Origin: a virus
Reading direction: 5' to 3' (one strand)
DNA: 37,958 nucleotides
IMG/VR virus record: IMGVR_UViG_3300037076_000069
Coordinates: 1-37,958 of that record
Shown: positions 6,095 to 25,341 of the stretch, one piece after another
Position numbering within the stretch: the stretch's first letter is position 1
Layout: each line of letters opens with the position of its first letter
Made by a program: the position numbers and the translations under genes
Notes under the pieces: model-generated
What the model was told of the DNA's origin: nothing
The model's database searches: none
Seen by the model: the letters and a program-made list of their open reading frames with translations, nothing else

Positions 6095-6754
6095 CTAGAT
6101 GTTAAATTTCTGCTTAATACTGGAAATAGTGGCCTTGTGCGCAGCGTCTTGAGTAGCAGCAAGGGCAGTGTTGAGCTTTACCGCTATGTCGGGATTCGAT
6201 TCCTTGAAGTCCTGCACGCCCTGAATCGTCGCCACGAGCGCACCCTTTGTCTTCTTAAGCAGCCACCACATCACGCCGATGGACGACGGGCAGAAGATTG
6301 CCAGCGCGATCAATCCTAAGACCGGAAGCGAAACGGCAAATCCGAACATATTAAATCCGGTACCTTCGATTTTCTTGCCGTCCACTTTACTTAGCCTTTC
6401 GTTTAGTAAAACCAACTGTCCTTGGTTTTCCTTAAGGCCATCAGCAAGGGACTTGATTGCCTCATTGCTGCCCTTTTCAGGTGTTTTGGCTTCAATCCTA
6501 TGCTCTGGCTCGCCAAGGCTGGCGGATAGCTTCTGGGCAACAGGGACCGACTCAGCCGGGGCCGTAATGGTGCGCGCCACATAGTCAGCCGCTTGCCGTT
6601 CGCCTTCAACTTGGGCTGCTGGCTTGCTGATCGGCGCTGGAACCTTGGACTGGAATATGCGAAGCTGAGGCGTTTTGCACCCGCTAAGCAGAAGCACGCC
6701 GACTACGACGAAGTAAACAGCGGGGATAACAAATCCGCGTGAGTTAGTTTTCAT
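6095..6754 (-). CDS. Lipoprotein with internal membrane segment, spanin candidate
   Basis: 219 residues, start overlapping the tail gene stop (TAATG). The N-terminus has a signal with lipobox LLLSGC (Cys about residue 26). A Pro/Ala-rich and coiled-coil region follows, then a strong membrane segment around residues 137-165 (VLGLIALAIF, GVMWWLL). One protein with an outer-membrane lipid anchor and an inner-membrane segment is the plan of unimolecular spanins, which fuse the two membranes at lysis. Unlike classic ones it has about 55 residues after the membrane segment. A virion or lysis-control lipoprotein is the alternative. Confidence 0.65.
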   Translation of the reverse strand: MKTNSRGFVIPAVYFVVVGVLLLSGCKTPQLRIFQSKVPAPISKPAAQVEGERQAADYVARTITAPAESVPVAQKLSASLGEPEHRIEAKTPEKGSNEAIKSLADGLKENQGQLVLLNERLSKVDGKKIEGTGFNMFGFAVSLPVLGLIALAIFCPSSIGVMWWLLKKTKGALVATIQGVQDFKESNPDIAVKLNTALAATQDAAHKATISSIKQKFNI

Positions 6755-9054
6755 TACGGGTTTAATGTTGTATAGGTAAATACCCCAACTATTACAGGGT
6801 TGGTGTTAGGAAAGTTGGCATGCGTTGCTCCCCCTATTTGAATCTCTCCACTAATTTCGTAAGCGTTAGCGTATAGTTGCGCCCCCTTAGTTAATGATCC
6901 TGTGTTATAAACAAAGCTAAGAGACCCCGCACCTGCATCATTCTGCTGGTTAGATATGACGTAAGGTAAACCGGCAATAGTAGCTGCCCCTGTTCCGCTA
7001 GGAGCATTATTCGTTGTTATCGTAATGAAGCACGTAACGACATTCCCTATCTTCTGGAAGTACCCACCATTTACCGATGTAAACGACGCGGTTCCTCCAA
7101 ACTTAAGGACTGGGCTCCACAGGCCAAACTCCATCATCGCTGTGCATTTCTGAAATAAAGAACTGCCATCGGTCCCCGCGTTTTCACCTGAGTTCTTATG
7201 GGTAAATCCATCAACTATGGGATAGCACAAGCGATTATTTCCACTAAAGACAGCTTCGTAAAGATGATTAAAATCTCCTTGGCTGTAGTAATCAGCCATG
7301 TTGCGGATATAGGTCTGCGACTGTTCGCTCCAAATTATATTCGAGTTAGACGAAACCCTATAGGCGTTTATCTCGTACTGGCTCTGCGCGAAACCTGATC
7401 CAAATGTTTGAAGGAATCTATTATTGATTCCTTCGCAGTATATTCCAGTAAATAGATGGTGCGATAAGTTAGATGAAATAGCTACATCTACAGACTCAAT
7501 AATTATCCCCTGGCCCGTCAAATATCCATAATACGAATATATTCCGCATGTCTTACTATTATTATCTGCAACCGTCCAGTGACTCGATGCTGGCGCTTCT
7601 CCCGCGTCATGCCCGTTTACCGATGGATTATATCTACCACTAGTTCCCACTCCGGTTAGATATACATTGTTAAAATTAAGTCCATTTATATCAGCATACG
7701 TCGAAATTCCTCTGAACGTAAATCCAGCGATGTAAGTATCGTTAATTCCACCGCCCCAACATGCAGATATCCTAATCCCGGTTACAAAATTAGCTATGCG
7801 ACAGTTCTTAATTCTAAGTAGCGGAACACCGGCAAGGTTTAGACCGGAACATAATTTAGTCCCGATGATATGAAGGTTTTCCAGAACTATATGCTCGCAA
7901 AATGCGAGTACCGCGTTAGAACTGTCGTCGCCGTGTGCAAGCACGTTGCTTACCCTAGTCCCGGATGCGTTGTAATTGGCGGTATCTAGCGCATAATCCG
8001 TATAATTGGCCGACGGGTAATCGACAAAAATGGATGAACAGTTGTTTGCTCCGAACTCAGTGAAAAAATTACCAGTACCATCGCCAAAAAGCCTCATCCC
8101 TGGAGCAAGAAGCAGCTTCGACGTAACCCTATACCTTCCCGCTGGAAAATAAACAGCACCCGGAGTCGATCCTAGCTCGGTGGATCTAGTTGTCCCTCTC
8201 CATGTAAATTTGCAAACATCGTATATAGCGGCATTTATCGCCGCCGCGTCATCGGTTACGCCATCGCCCTTTGCTCCGTAGCGCTTTACGTTACAAGCAC
8301 CAGACCAAATTGCTTTTAGCCGCGTTCCATCGGCTGCGACGATAACCGTTCCGCCGTTGTCTGCCGTAGTCGTGTCGGCCTTGTCAACGTAGAACTGGCC
8401 GCCGCCACCGTCGCCATTGACGTAATATCCTAGAAGCTGTATGAGTGCCCCAGTTGTTGACGATGTGTAGACCAATGCCTTCATCGCTGCCACGCTAGAC
8501 GCCTGGGCAAAGAATGAACCAAATGGAACTGTTGCAGGAACTAGATAGGTAGGGGAACCGTTAGAATCAAACGCGAGCACGTTACCTTTACGATCTGAAG
8601 TGAGAATCGAACTGGCCGGATCTCCAACCGGAAAATGAAGTGCGCTTGCGTCGGATAGAGTAAGCTCTTTATCTACGTTCGTAAGTTTATCTAGTGCTTG
8701 CTCAATCATCGGAACAGTTAGCGCACCAGTAGCTAGAAAGCTGGTCTGCTGTGTCTTAGGTGTTGCAAGCGAAACCGTGATATAGTCGCCAACTTGTACG
8801 CCATGCGTGCCCCTGCCCACTATAGTAATAGATCCGGTCAGCATGTTGTTCTGCGTATCATATCCACCGCCAGTAACGGTGAAGTCTGAGTTCCGCGTCA
8901 AAACCGTCGGCGGTGATAACGCCGTAGGACTTGAGCCAGAGTCGGTAACGAGCAAATCAGTCGTGAGCTGAAAAGGGAACGTGACGGCCAGCGTCGCCGG
9001 CAGGCTTGCGATAATGTACGTGCCAACTTGCGCAGATTGATTGCTTAAGCTCAT
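6754..9054 (-). CDS. Tail fibre / tailspike with pectate-lyase fold
   Basis: 766 residues. The N-terminal 150 or so resemble a podovirus virion-attachment region. A pectate-lyase superfamily entry motif (NVKRYGAKGDGVTDDAAAIN, about residues 255-274) starts a right-handed beta-helix with many short Asn/Gly-rich turns to about residue 640. The last 120 residues look like a C-terminal beta domain. Beta-helix tail proteins bind or degrade surface polysaccharide, so this is the likely receptor-recognition protein. Catalytic residues cannot be assigned by eye. Codon choice in the beta-helix is more AT-rich than in neighbours, consistent with exchange of host-range modules. Confidence 0.88.
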   Translation of the reverse strand: MSLSNQSAQVGTYIIASLPATLAVTFPFQLTTDLLVTDSGSSPTALSPPTVLTRNSDFTVTGGGYDTQNNMLTGSITIVGRGTHGVQVGDYITVSLATPKTQQTSFLATGALTVPMIEQALDKLTNVDKELTLSDASALHFPVGDPASSILTSDRKGNVLAFDSNGSPTYLVPATVPFGSFFAQASSVAAMKALVYTSSTTGALIQLLGYYVNGDGGGGQFYVDKADTTTADNGGTVIVAADGTRLKAIWSGACNVKRYGAKGDGVTDDAAAINAAIYDVCKFTWRGTTRSTELGSTPGAVYFPAGRYRVTSKLLLAPGMRLFGDGTGNFFTEFGANNCSSIFVDYPSANYTDYALDTANYNASGTRVSNVLAHGDDSSNAVLAFCEHIVLENLHIIGTKLCSGLNLAGVPLLRIKNCRIANFVTGIRISACWGGGINDTYIAGFTFRGISTYADINGLNFNNVYLTGVGTSGRYNPSVNGHDAGEAPASSHWTVADNNSKTCGIYSYYGYLTGQGIIIESVDVAISSNLSHHLFTGIYCEGINNRFLQTFGSGFAQSQYEINAYRVSSNSNIIWSEQSQTYIRNMADYYSQGDFNHLYEAVFSGNNRLCYPIVDGFTHKNSGENAGTDGSSLFQKCTAMMEFGLWSPVLKFGGTASFTSVNGGYFQKIGNVVTCFITITTNNAPSGTGAATIAGLPYVISNQQNDAGAGSLSFVYNTGSLTKGAQLYANAYEISGEIQIGGATHANFPNTNPVIVGVFTYTTLNP

Positions 9055-20747: not shown

Positions 20748-21572
20748 TCAGCCGTTCGTGGAGTGGTAACGTGACCAGACAAAGCTAGAATCCTGAACCG
20801 GAGAATACCGACGCCATTTGCGCTCGTTTCCATCCTGCGTTCTAGCCTCGCCAAGGGCCCTATTATAGAGAGCGAGTAGTCCAGCCGCCATCGTACCGCC
20901 ATCCTTCCTTAAATCAGTTGCAATCGACGCCCCAAGACGAAGCGATAGAGCGTCAACAAACATCGAGTCATAATGCGTGGCATCCATGTCTAGCGCCACG
21001 TACTTGATGACCGCCTGTGAATCGTTCGTGTAGAGGTTGATTCCTTGGATCTCGTACTCAACCTGCGGGCGGCATTCGTTGTCATTTAGTTCAACAAGGA
21101 GCAGGTAATCGGACGGAAGCGGGAACTGGCTAGCCCAACCAGACGCGAATCCTTGACCGGCACTACAGCCGCAAAATGGGTCTGCATTGTAGGTGTCAGT
21201 CTGGAACCAGTAACCTAGCGTTAGGTCATTTATGAAACTAGCCGATGACGTATTCGCAATTAGACACTGGTAAAGATACCCTGAAAACATCACGTATGCG
21301 TTTACAGAATACGCAGTCAAAGGAGCCCAGTTCGTAGATGTTACCGTAACCGATGGGTTGATCGGCGTCTGGGGAGTTGCAGTCAACACAGTAGCGCGCA
21401 GAAGGCAGGACCACGGGTGCGCCCTGCTCACCTCGGTTAGTACCGACATATAACTAGTGTTACATGCAATCGAACTAGTATTTGTTAAGTCTGTAAGTGA
21501 ACTGATTGCCCGTGCGCCCACCCGGCTTAGTGCTAGGTTGCAAATCTCCAGTTGTCCAAGGCTTGAAGGCAT
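20748..21572 (-). CDS. Tail tubular protein A / adaptor (gp11-like)
   Basis: 274 residues. The start LEICNLALSRVGARAISSL, then a Cys-containing helix and SRAHPWSCLLRATVLT, is the signature of gp11-type head-tail adaptor proteins (Leu-Ser-Arg-x-Gly and Pro-Trp motifs). It forms the dodecameric ring under the portal. Confidence 0.88.
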   Translation of the reverse strand: MPSSLGQLEICNLALSRVGARAISSLTDLTNTSSIACNTSYMSVLTEVSRAHPWSCLLRATVLTATPQTPINPSVTVTSTNWAPLTAYSVNAYVMFSGYLYQCLIANTSSASFINDLTLGYWFQTDTYNADPFCGCSAGQGFASGWASQFPLPSDYLLLVELNDNECRPQVEYEIQGINLYTNDSQAVIKYVALDMDATHYDSMFVDALSLRLGASIATDLRKDGGTMAAGLLALYNRALGEARTQDGNERKWRRYSPVQDSSFVWSRYHSTNG

Positions 21573-22712: not shown

Positions 22713-23615
22713 TCACACACTTTCATCACAAGCGATTGAAACAACGCCTTCCTCTTCAAGACGGGTTGCGTCGAGGAGAATAACCGTGCGCACCTGAATG
22801 GCGTGCGACTGGTCAGGCAAGATGTCGATGTGCGTCTTCTGATCTTCGCCAAGGCCCAGCAAGAGGAACTCTTTCTGGTAGGCAAAGCAGGTGCGGACGT
22901 TGGTAACAATCGGGAGGAGCTGAGTGCGGATGAACTTGAAGCCCATGAACTCTTCGACGCGGCCCTTGTACAAGGCGCGAACCTCGTTATAGAGCGTGTT
23001 GTTGACCTGATCGACGTTGGTCAGGAGGTTGTTGAGTTCCTTGGCAGCGTAAACAAATACGCGGTCCATTTCATCAACGTCCTTCGCATCGAGCAGATAT
23101 GAGGCATTGGTCAGCTTCGCGAGCGTGAGACCCGTGTTAGCACCGCCGCCGTAGTTTACGGCGATCTGCTGAGCGGCAGGCAGCGCGGTGGCAGTAGTGC
23201 CACTGGCACCCGTGTAATTTGTGCCGAGAGCGGCATTGATGAGGATCTGATCTTTGAGGCGGTCAACTGCGATGCCGTGGTTCTTGACCGTGATGCCCTG
23301 CGGATCGGGGAGAGTGCCAAGCATGATATGATCATGCTCGTCAATCCAAGTTGTCTTGTCGTAGGGACGCGGGCGAACCCAGCGGCTGAACGACGGAATA
23401 TCGGAAGGCTCAGTTTTCTGCGCACGAGCGGTCTTTTGGCGCATCGCGTAGGACTGCGCGCCAACCTGGTCGTAGCGTTTCTGATTTCCGGGGATGTTCG
23501 TATCGACCTGATAAAGGCCAGCAAGGCGGTGTTTCCGCTGTTGGGCCATGATTTCGCGCCAATTGTCATCAAAGGCGGTCTCGTAATGGGGAGGCAAACT
23601 GAAGATTCCAGGCAT
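22713..23615 (-). CDS. Major capsid protein
   Basis: 300 residues. Position after scaffold, size and sequence (SLPPHYETAFDDNWREIMAQ, then WIDEHDHIMLGTLPDPQG, DEMDRVFVYAAKELNNLL) fit an HK97-fold capsid protein of P22/T7-like distant type. The C-terminal segment (DQSHAIQVRTVILLDATRLE) is typical of the last beta strands. Coat identity rests on context plus resemblance, not a catalytic motif. Confidence 0.82.
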   Translation of the reverse strand: MPGIFSLPPHYETAFDDNWREIMAQQRKHRLAGLYQVDTNIPGNQKRYDQVGAQSYAMRQKTARAQKTEPSDIPSFSRWVRPRPYDKTTWIDEHDHIMLGTLPDPQGITVKNHGIAVDRLKDQILINAALGTNYTGASGTTATALPAAQQIAVNYGGGANTGLTLAKLTNASYLLDAKDVDEMDRVFVYAAKELNNLLTNVDQVNNTLYNEVRALYKGRVEEFMGFKFIRTQLLPIVTNVRTCFAYQKEFLLLGLGEDQKTHIDILPDQSHAIQVRTVILLDATRLEEEGVVSIACDESV

Positions 23616-23790
23616 GTTAGTAAAATTTGTCTAACGTGATCTATCGCGCCTGAGACTCCAGATGTCCGCTATGCGGTTTGGCACTCAGAACAGTAATTCT
23701 GAGGGAGTTACCGGGGCCGATTGCTCGGGGTATCCTAACTTACCTCGTAACGACTAACAGAATTAGTCTTGGCTAAAGTCAAACTAAATT
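23616..23790 (-). promoter_or_regulatory. Capsid gene leader with possible promoter
   Basis: A terminator upstream (24524-24553) implies a new start for capsid mRNA. TTGACT (23782-23777) and TGTTAG (23759-23754), 17 bases apart on the minus strand, are a weak candidate. The leader then folds into several hairpins: a seven-base stem at 23684-23703 (CTCAGAA/TTCTGAG), CCGA-GCAA-TCGG with a GNRA loop near 23720, and CCGC-ATA-GCGG near 23670. A stable 5' end would suit a highly expressed capsid mRNA. Confidence 0.35.
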
Positions 23791-23875
23791 GTTGACACGC
23801 GACGAAACATGATTCTGTTTCGCGAACGTTAGAAGCGTCTAGCAGCGCATAGGAAAACTTTCAGATGTCAGTAAA

Positions 23876-23908
23876 GCTCCGGTGCCTGCTAGCCCGGAGT
23901 TTTTCTTT
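23876..23908 (+). terminator. Plus-strand terminator inside the gene-free region
   Basis: CTCCGG (23877-23882) and CCGGAG (23894-23899) form a GC-rich stem with TTTTTCTTT after it, on the + strand only. No + strand gene exists for thousands of bases, so this hints at + strand non-coding transcription (TTGACA at 23792-23797 lies upstream). It could also be an internal stem of a longer RNA. Confidence 0.5.
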
Positions 23909-24500
23909 GCCCAAGTCGGAACGACGTGAAGAAACGAACGGAGCCTAAACAGCCCGGTGACAGATTCAATACGGTGCCTAGACCGCCACGCGGCAAGGTC
24001 GATGGCATTGTTGAGCGTGATGTGCAACTTTCCGTAGTAATACGGTTAGGCCCGGCCTCGAAAGAGGTGGATGTAATTCCCGTAACTGAGGTACCGGTCG
24101 GTTGGAACCCGACGATGCAAGCAGTCTATTCCGGCAGATTCCGAGGAATGGACCGAAGCTAGTCACGCGCTCAACAATGCCATCACCCACCATCTAGGCT
24201 TAATATTACTTTGCGTGATGCCGCTGTTGAGCTAATCAAAACTATTCCCGGAGTTGTGGGTTCGAGCCCCGCCAAGTTTGTGCGTCTTGTGGTGTAATGG
24301 TAACACGAAGGATCGCCGGGCAAAGTCGAAGAGAAAACGCACAGCTCAACAGCGCTATCACCAGTGAGCCGTGCAGCAGCCTTAATGGAGATTACCGTGG
24401 CGACGACCTGCACAAGTACCGGATACCTCATCTCTCTTGAACAGAGTTGAACGACCTCACGCTCATCATTAGGTTGGTGAGCTTGTGCCCGTATTCCTAC
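23905..24500 (+). ncRNA. Candidate large structured non-coding RNA (GOLLD/ROOL-like class)
   Basis: No credible gene in about 990 bases between the decoration-like gene and the capsid. The + strand folds extensively. Stem A pairs 24001-24017 with 24168-24184 (17 perfect pairs, plus three more past a bulge). Inside it are CCGTA-GTAA-TACGG and CCTC-GAAA-GAGG, both with GNRA loops on the + strand only, GTCGG-TTGGAAC-CCGAC and an ATTCC/GGAAT hairpin. Stem B pairs 24222-24233 with 24343-24354 (12 perfect) and 24215-24219 with 24357-24361; it encloses a tRNA-like element. Further stems follow (GTGCAG/CTGCAC, GCACAAG/CTTGTGC). Large ornate RNAs of several hundred bases with embedded or adjacent tRNAs are known from phages (GOLLD, ROOL). 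I cannot test homology here; ends are approximate. Confidence 0.55.
24247..24320 (+). ncRNA. Permuted tRNA-like element
   Basis: A canonical T-arm (GTGGG-TTCGAGC-CCCGC, 24256-24272) comes first. CAAG (24273-24276) then pairs with CTTG (24286-24289) across a nine-base loop in place of the acceptor end. Next come TG and a canonical D-arm (GTGT-AATGGTA-ACAC, 24292-24306), with residues equivalent to U8, A14, G18, G19 and A21. CCCGG (24247-24251) and CCGGG (24316-24320) close the element where the anticodon stem would be. Order T-arm before D-arm means a circularly permuted tRNA shape joined to the larger RNA through its anticodon stem. No normal anticodon loop is seen, so it is more likely a structural tRNA mimic than a decoding tRNA. 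Confidence 0.55.
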
Positions 24501-24523
24501 ATCTTGCCCAGAGATAAACAAAC

Positions 24524-24553
24524 GAAAAGCCCACCAGCTTGAAGCCAGTGGGC
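24524..24553 (-). terminator. Rho-independent terminator
   Basis: On the minus strand GCCCAC (24553-24548) pairs with GTGGGC (24534-24529), followed by TTTTCGTTTGTTT. It closes the transcript of the small structural gene at 24602 and marks the right edge of the gene-free region. Confidence 0.7.
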
Positions 24554-24601
24554 AGGAGTATATGTTAGCGAATCAGCGTTTGCGCGACGCCGGAAAGTCG
24601 G

Positions 24602-25071: not shown

Positions 25072-25341
25072 TTACGTAATTATCCCAACTATGTCGCGCT
25101 CTCGTCCATGCCAAACCTCTATCCCATCCATTTGCTGCTTAGTGTCATCCCAGTACTCGCTTAGTAGGACCGTCTTGCCGACAGTCGCCAGCTCAACTTT
25201 CGGCCCAGCGGCCACGACTCGCGCCTTCACGAATACCTGATTGCGAGTCGATTTGGTTGAGTCGGTGATGTAGATTCCGCCTATCTTGTCTTCACGAGCA
25301 ATCGGCGTAACGAAGATAACGTCGCGTAATGGTTTGATCAT
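25072..25341 (-). CDS. GroES-like co-chaperonin
   Basis: 89 residues, close to the usual 95 or so. The start IKPLRDVIFVTPIAREDKIGG and the middle ARVVAAGPKVELATVGKTVLLSEYW follow the chaperonin-10 pattern (N-terminal Lys-Pro-Leu-x-Asp, Val-Val-Ala-x-Gly-Pro, Gly-x-x-Val-Leu). The mobile loop would be near STKSTRNQ. Overlaps the scaffold stop by four bases. Phage co-chaperonins (for example T4 gp31) work with host GroEL to fold the capsid protein; the location between scaffold and capsid genes fits this. Confidence 0.85.
   Translation of the reverse strand: MIKPLRDVIFVTPIAREDKIGGIYITDSTKSTRNQVFVKARVVAAGPKVELATVGKTVLLSEYWDDTKQQMDGIEVWHGRERDIVGIIT

Follow-up and report, generated by a model that had tools for sequence, protein, structure and literature searches.

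In the gap that separates the major capsid gene from the preceding gene, we identified what appears to be a large noncoding plus-strand RNA of a phage, in which a near-invariant trunk carries three sockets (X, A and B) that hold mostly unrelated domains in each phage. The window, that is, the whole stretch of DNA analysed, is a virus record of 37,958 bases. A large structured RNA on the plus strand is supported by the comparison of three copies, on whose sequences our account of the fold and of its modularity rests. We assign a probability of roughly 45% to the reading that the RNA serves the phage as a scaffold, presenting swappable domains by which host factors are bound or misled.

The terminase, head-tail connector, major capsid, tail and tail-spike genes lie on the minus strand of the window, and the capsid protein is 31-36% identical to the capsid proteins of Pelagibacter phages, e.g., HTVC010P. 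On the same strand are genes for a tail protein bearing a carbohydrate-binding module 5/12 (20748-21572) and for a tail spike with a pectate-lyase-like domain (6754-9054), and a small gene with a match to the phage co-chaperonin GroES (phrog_3188; 25072-25341, minus strand) lies in the late operon beside the capsid region. The gene-free gap spans 986 bases (23616-24601), in agreement with the approximately 990 bases given by the first-pass annotation, which had missed that the gap consists of three units distributed over both strands (the capsid leader, a 5' terminator unit and the large RNA), as well as the sockets with their modules and a permuted tRNA-like domain. We ruled out coding in the gap: none of its open reading frames has a convincing PHROG match, and the longest, of 112 amino acids, contains in-frame stops in both relatives that carry the RNA, L034 and L035. 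The units and their borders are as follows.

~23640-23760, minus strand: structured leader of the major capsid gene, on the same strand as the gene and separate from the large RNA
~23790-23908, plus strand: 5' unit of a hairpin and a terminator, with loop-loop complementarity and a compensation in L035
23835-23848, plus strand: hairpin of the 5' unit, with the loop TCTAGCAG
23877-23908, plus strand: terminator CTCCGG-TGCCTGCTAGC-CCGGAG-TTTTTCTTT, its loop complementary to the loop of the upstream hairpin
~23910-24515 (ends approximate), plus strand: the whole large modular RNA, noncoding, with homologues in L034 and L035 and compensating changes
24529-24553, minus strand: terminator of the upstream late gene, at the edge of the island

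Relatives were gathered by a capsid protein scan (33 loci) and a capsid-alignment scan (53 loci). The same RNA was found in only two further contigs, L034 (IMGVR 3300012931_000036) and L035 (IMGVR 3300033487_000212), both metagenomic phages, where it occupies the same site as in the window, flanked by the capsid leader on one side and by the preceding gene's terminator on the other. The other relatives that were measured have approximately 170-250 bases in the gap, taken up by the capsid leader and often, where this was looked at, by a terminator. A covariance model of the 3' part recovered only the three members from 20 records, the 17 other family records being without the RNA, and gave no match in 36 loci. 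Four trunk patterns (exact stretches of 16-23 bases, which diverged members may escape) searched against 2.9 million viral contigs returned only L034 and L035 besides chance matches, among them L037-L062 and L116, which were rejected on reading; the nine matches in a scan of 84,980 prokaryote genomes were all attributable to chance. BLAST searches of phages with the RNA and with its domains, and of plasmids with the RNA, gave no match, and scans of viral contigs with patterns for the T-arm/D-arm pair and for module alpha (the domain in socket A of the window) added no member. The insertion-like presence of the RNA in three phages, and its absence at the same site in the other sampled relatives, would suit a mobile or self-processing RNA (intron-like or a ribozyme) with variable peripheral domains. 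We regard this as very unlikely, however, given that the RNA is intergenic rather than inside a gene, that no reverse transcriptase or endonuclease was identified adjacent to it, and that group I, group II and other ribozyme models gave no match in the three copies at E ≤ 10 or E ≤ 5. L035 is a mosaic: its leader is 93% and its 3' part 98% like L034, and its 5' unit is 88% like that of the window over a stretch where the 5' unit of L034 does not align, a pattern that points to recombination inside the RNA island.

The trunk shows a mean column identity of 93% over 325 columns among the three phages and contains segments of approximately 30-36 bases each that are identical in all copies. The first-pass annotation had placed the RNA at 23905-24500; its strand holds, but its end lies slightly farther, at ~24515. 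Both of the long stems reported there as having 20 and 17 pairs were found, at 24215-24233/24343-24361 (19 nt, 89%) and at 24001-24017/24168-24184 (17 nt, 100%), and they rank highest among the inverted repeats found within 400 bases in the whole window. From 5' to 3', the large RNA comprises the following elements.

23915-23925, plus strand: 5' hairpin GTCGGAACGAC, with three compensating pairs relative to GCTC...GAGC in L034
23938-23966, plus strand: trunk segment ACGGAGCCTAAACAGCCCGGTGACAGATT, unchanged across the three copies
23967-23970, plus strand: socket X, empty in the window (4 nt)
23976-23982/24193-24199, plus strand: trunk stem GCCTAGA/TCTAGGC, enclosing the hairpin at 23981-24000 and socket A
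24001-24020/24163-24184, plus strand: stem of socket A, an inverted repeat with module alpha inside; G-C changed to G-U in L035
24188-24223, plus strand: trunk linker CACCATCTAGGCTTAATATTACTTTGCGTGATGCCG, identical in all three copies
24215-24233/24343-24361, plus strand: stem of socket B, an inverted repeat with a C-G to U-A compensation
24371-24413, plus strand: helix P4, GTGCAG/CTGCAC, with five two-sided compensating pairs relative to GGAGCA/TGCTCC
24434-24446, plus strand: hairpin P5, with a T-A to T-G change
24461-24482, plus strand: hairpin P6, with T-G to C-G and A-T to C-G changes
24489-24508, plus strand: 3' trunk segment CCGTATTCCTACATCTTGCC, of which the part CCGTATTCCTACATCTT is identical in all three copies

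The hairpin at 23981-24000 shares its first two bases with the trunk stem, so that the inner end of this stem is uncertain.

Compensating changes in homologues, which the first-pass annotation had proposed as a check, were found in the two relatives: across the three copies, compensation by a change in both bases is seen in 13 helix pairs, a change in only one base in 6 and disruption in 1, as counted on helices chosen by hand in three sequences, two of which are close. Hand-defined helices were used since neither helix P4 nor the final hairpin of module alpha is placed correctly in the trunk and alpha alignments. All 6 one-sided changes yield G-U pairs on the plus strand, and the same changes are A-C mismatches on the minus strand. 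The plus-strand GNRA loops claimed earlier were both located, in the hairpins CCGTA-GTAA-TACGG (24032-24045) and CCTC-GAAA-GAGG (within 24055-24068). Two such hairpins occurred by chance in 11 of 500 shuffles of the window sequence and in 4 of 500 for L034, and GNRA hairpins on the minus strand are at chance level. Both loops of module alpha stay GNRA, with one closing pair changed from C-G to A-T (CCTC-GAAA-GAGG vs. CCTA-GCAA-TAGG). The z-scores of the minimum free energy were lower on the plus strand than on the minus strand in every copy (−2.8 vs. −2.3 for the window, −8.0 vs. −6.4 for L034, and −5.8 vs. −5.0 for L035); RNAalifold applied to the trunk did not separate the strands (−106.5 for plus vs. 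−109.6 for minus). The compensations, the G-U pairs, the retained GNRA loops and the T- and D-arms described below, all read on the plus strand, bear out the earlier claim of a structured RNA opposite the late genes. A DNA element, such as a recombination, replication or packaging site with inverted repeats extruded as cruciforms, could account for the long inverted repeats and for the exchange of modules, but the confinement of the G-U changes, the GNRA loops and the T and D loops to one strand is not predicted by DNA pairing, and we find this alternative scarcely credible.

At three points, the sequences of the three copies diverge and then become alike again. Socket X holds inserts of 175 bases in L034 and 183 bases in L035, each closed by a long stem, the base of which the two inserts have in common, their interiors being different. 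The inserts of socket A measure 164 (window), 90 (L034) and 145 (L035) bases, and those of socket B 111, 149 and 105 bases, respectively. An all-vs-all comparison of the eight domain instances yielded a single homologous whole-domain pair, namely the domain in socket A of the window and that in socket B of L034 (79-81% over approximately 150 bases); as judged from its sequence, one domain is hence found in different sockets. Each domain has two ends that carry on the stem of its socket, and on this ground we rejected the possibility of an assembly chimaera. Socket A of the window carries the arms TTGAGC...GCTCAA, which are otherwise typical of socket B, suggesting that the domain moved together with short homologous arms. 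Within the window, the arms of socket A are similar to those of socket B (24001-24020 and 24215-24233; 24163-24184 and 24343-24361), which would allow the alternative pairing of A's 5' arm with B's 3' arm; this likeness could reflect a conformational switch or be a trace of domain transfer.

Only one of the eight domain instances, that in socket B of the window, resembles a known RNA.

24253-24306, plus strand: permuted tRNA-like (Y RNA-like) domain, matched by the Rfam model YrlA (RF02553)
24256-24272, plus strand: T-arm GTGGG-TTCGAGC-CCCGC
24273-24289, plus strand: short acceptor-like hairpin
24292-24306, plus strand: D-arm GTGT-AATGGTA-ACAC

The domain is flanked by CCCGG (within 24245-24253) and CCGGG (within 24315-24321). 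With the T-arm preceding the D-arm, the arms of the tRNA elbow are circularly permuted, as they are in bacterial Y RNAs (YrlA). The match covers positions 28-81 of the 114 positions of the model, with 22.7 bits compared to a whole-model gathering cut-off of 69 (E = 0.038 for 1 kb, and E = 0.0062 for 161 bases). The T-arm/D-arm arrangement occurred by chance twice in 4.55 Mb of shuffled window sequence, and had no other occurrence in approximately 2 Mb strand-bases of the fetched loci. The domain shares with YrlA the permuted T-arm, the acceptor-like hairpin and the D-arm upon a long stem, and differs from it in being only one module among several within a far larger RNA, in a phage without Ro60/Rsr: a Ro60/Rsr (TROVE) gene was found in none of five phage records, with a match in a control genome, although the host could supply one. 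The domain might instead be the remnant of a tRNA gene, or two adjacent tRNA fragments, with no function as a mimic, inasmuch as the sequences of both arms are tRNA-like in detail and a single copy of the domain is known. We consider this improbable because the domain is framed exactly by socket B, which holds other domains in L034 and L035, because the order of its arms and its loops agree with the tRNA-like domain of YrlA, and because ARAGORN detected no tRNA in the window.

Large phage RNAs with ornate folds have precedents. Searches of Rfam, both at gathering and with permissive E-values, returned no family that spans the whole RNA. The first-pass annotation had suggested either a member of GOLLD or ROOL or a new class, along with a search using the two Rfam models. 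Neither model matched at gathering or at E ≤ 10 over 23600-24600, and no tRNA genes were found in the window or in 14 related loci, which argues against membership and leaves a new class as the better branch. GOLLD has a conserved 3' part and a less conserved, variable 5' part, sometimes with tRNAs in the linker, and forms a 14-mer cage, and ROOL is a large ornate RNA of phages and prophages with unknown function (PMC12286853). The RNA described here and GOLLD are both large ornate phage RNAs with conserved and variable regions, but the variable portions of the present RNA are separate domains distributed over three sockets, with one domain present in two different sockets, and a permuted tRNA mimic takes the place of the tRNA genes that are frequently, if not universally, found in the vicinity of GOLLD. 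Likewise, it resembles ROOL in size and ornate fold, and differs in the lack of both a model match and a tRNA island. The similarity to GOLLD and ROOL in size, phage location and fold would fit a homo-oligomeric cage or particle with the variable domains facing in or out; given the absence of a match to either model and of adjoining tRNA genes, we think this unlikely. As far as our search of the open-licence literature shows, discrete sockets and the occurrence of one domain in two sockets are undescribed.

Under the scaffold reading that we prefer, the phage would specify a noncoding plus-strand RNA of approximately 600-740 nt, with a near-invariant trunk and three helical sockets, each holding an exchangeable folded domain, the two ends of which would prolong the socket stem. 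The RNA would be transcribed during infection, starting behind the terminator unit (23877-23908) or by read-through, and the trunk would serve as a scaffold for mimics of cellular RNAs, domains by which RNA-binding proteins of the host would be captured or blocked. The tRNA-like domain, in particular, could be a decoy for tRNA-handling or tRNA-cutting enzymes; the tRNA-like domain of YrlA has been proposed to be a competitive inhibitor of anticodon nuclease (PMC7790460). Domains would be exchanged by recombination via the conserved socket arms, as could be expected if hosts change what needs countering, and a constant trunk with turnover of domains fits a scaffold of decoys that is re-equipped by recombination. 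Phage RNA mimics that block defence are exemplified by Racrs, solitary units imitating CRISPR repeats (PMC10651486), to which the likeness lies only in the proposed principle that a host protein is occupied by a phage mimic of a cellular RNA. We tentatively suggest that this is a new kind of viral RNA, a chassis with sockets and swappable effector domains (such as the tRNA mimic) directed against or toward host factors. No function is known for GOLLD or ROOL, and the division into constant trunk and variable domains seen here provides a direct handle: the differences between phages should point to the bound partner. If the display idea is true, phages re-equip a scaffold RNA as they do tail fibres, the tRNA-like domain is the first testable target, and the RNA is a natural case of modular RNA design.

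In the 5' unit, the loop of the terminator is complementary to that of the upstream hairpin over 7 nt in the window (p = 0.03) and over 8 nt in L034 (p = 0.009), where the complementarity is kept though the sequence is unrelated to that of the window; in L035, an A-T pair between the loops is replaced by G-C. The counterparts of the unit lie at ~5790-5695 (minus strand) in L034 and at ~5905-5795 (minus strand) in L035. A kissing loop between the two loops is possible on these sequence grounds, and the terminator and hairpin preceding the large RNA may be a kissing-loop attenuator or a small RNA. At the position of the terminator at 24529-24553, L034 and L035 have hairpins of other sequence with the same T-run. 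Given that the terminators at 23877-23908 (plus strand) and 24529-24553 (minus strand) block transcription from outside, the plus-strand transcript would read through the first or start right after it; no promoter for the large RNA was recognised.

The location of the large RNA on the strand opposite the capsid leader and immediately upstream of it, together with the terminator unit and its possible kissing loop, could also indicate a cis-acting antisense or attenuator RNA, a plus-strand transcript against the late operon that controls the major capsid gene. However, the large RNA and the leader have no bases in common, the leader is kept in relatives without the RNA, and such control leaves the exchangeable domains and the tRNA mimic unexplained; we judge it distinctly unlikely. 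The leader gave no Rfam match at gathering. It precedes the capsid gene in L002-L008, L034, L035, L077, L101, L104, L106 and L108, and its GGACA.CCG segments and a covarying hairpin are kept across the phage family. All four pairs of this GNRA hairpin changed on both sides across relatives (CCGA-GCAA-TCGG in the window vs. CGGC-GCAA-GCCG in L034 and L035), and the leader RNA probably acts in cis to regulate the capsid gene.
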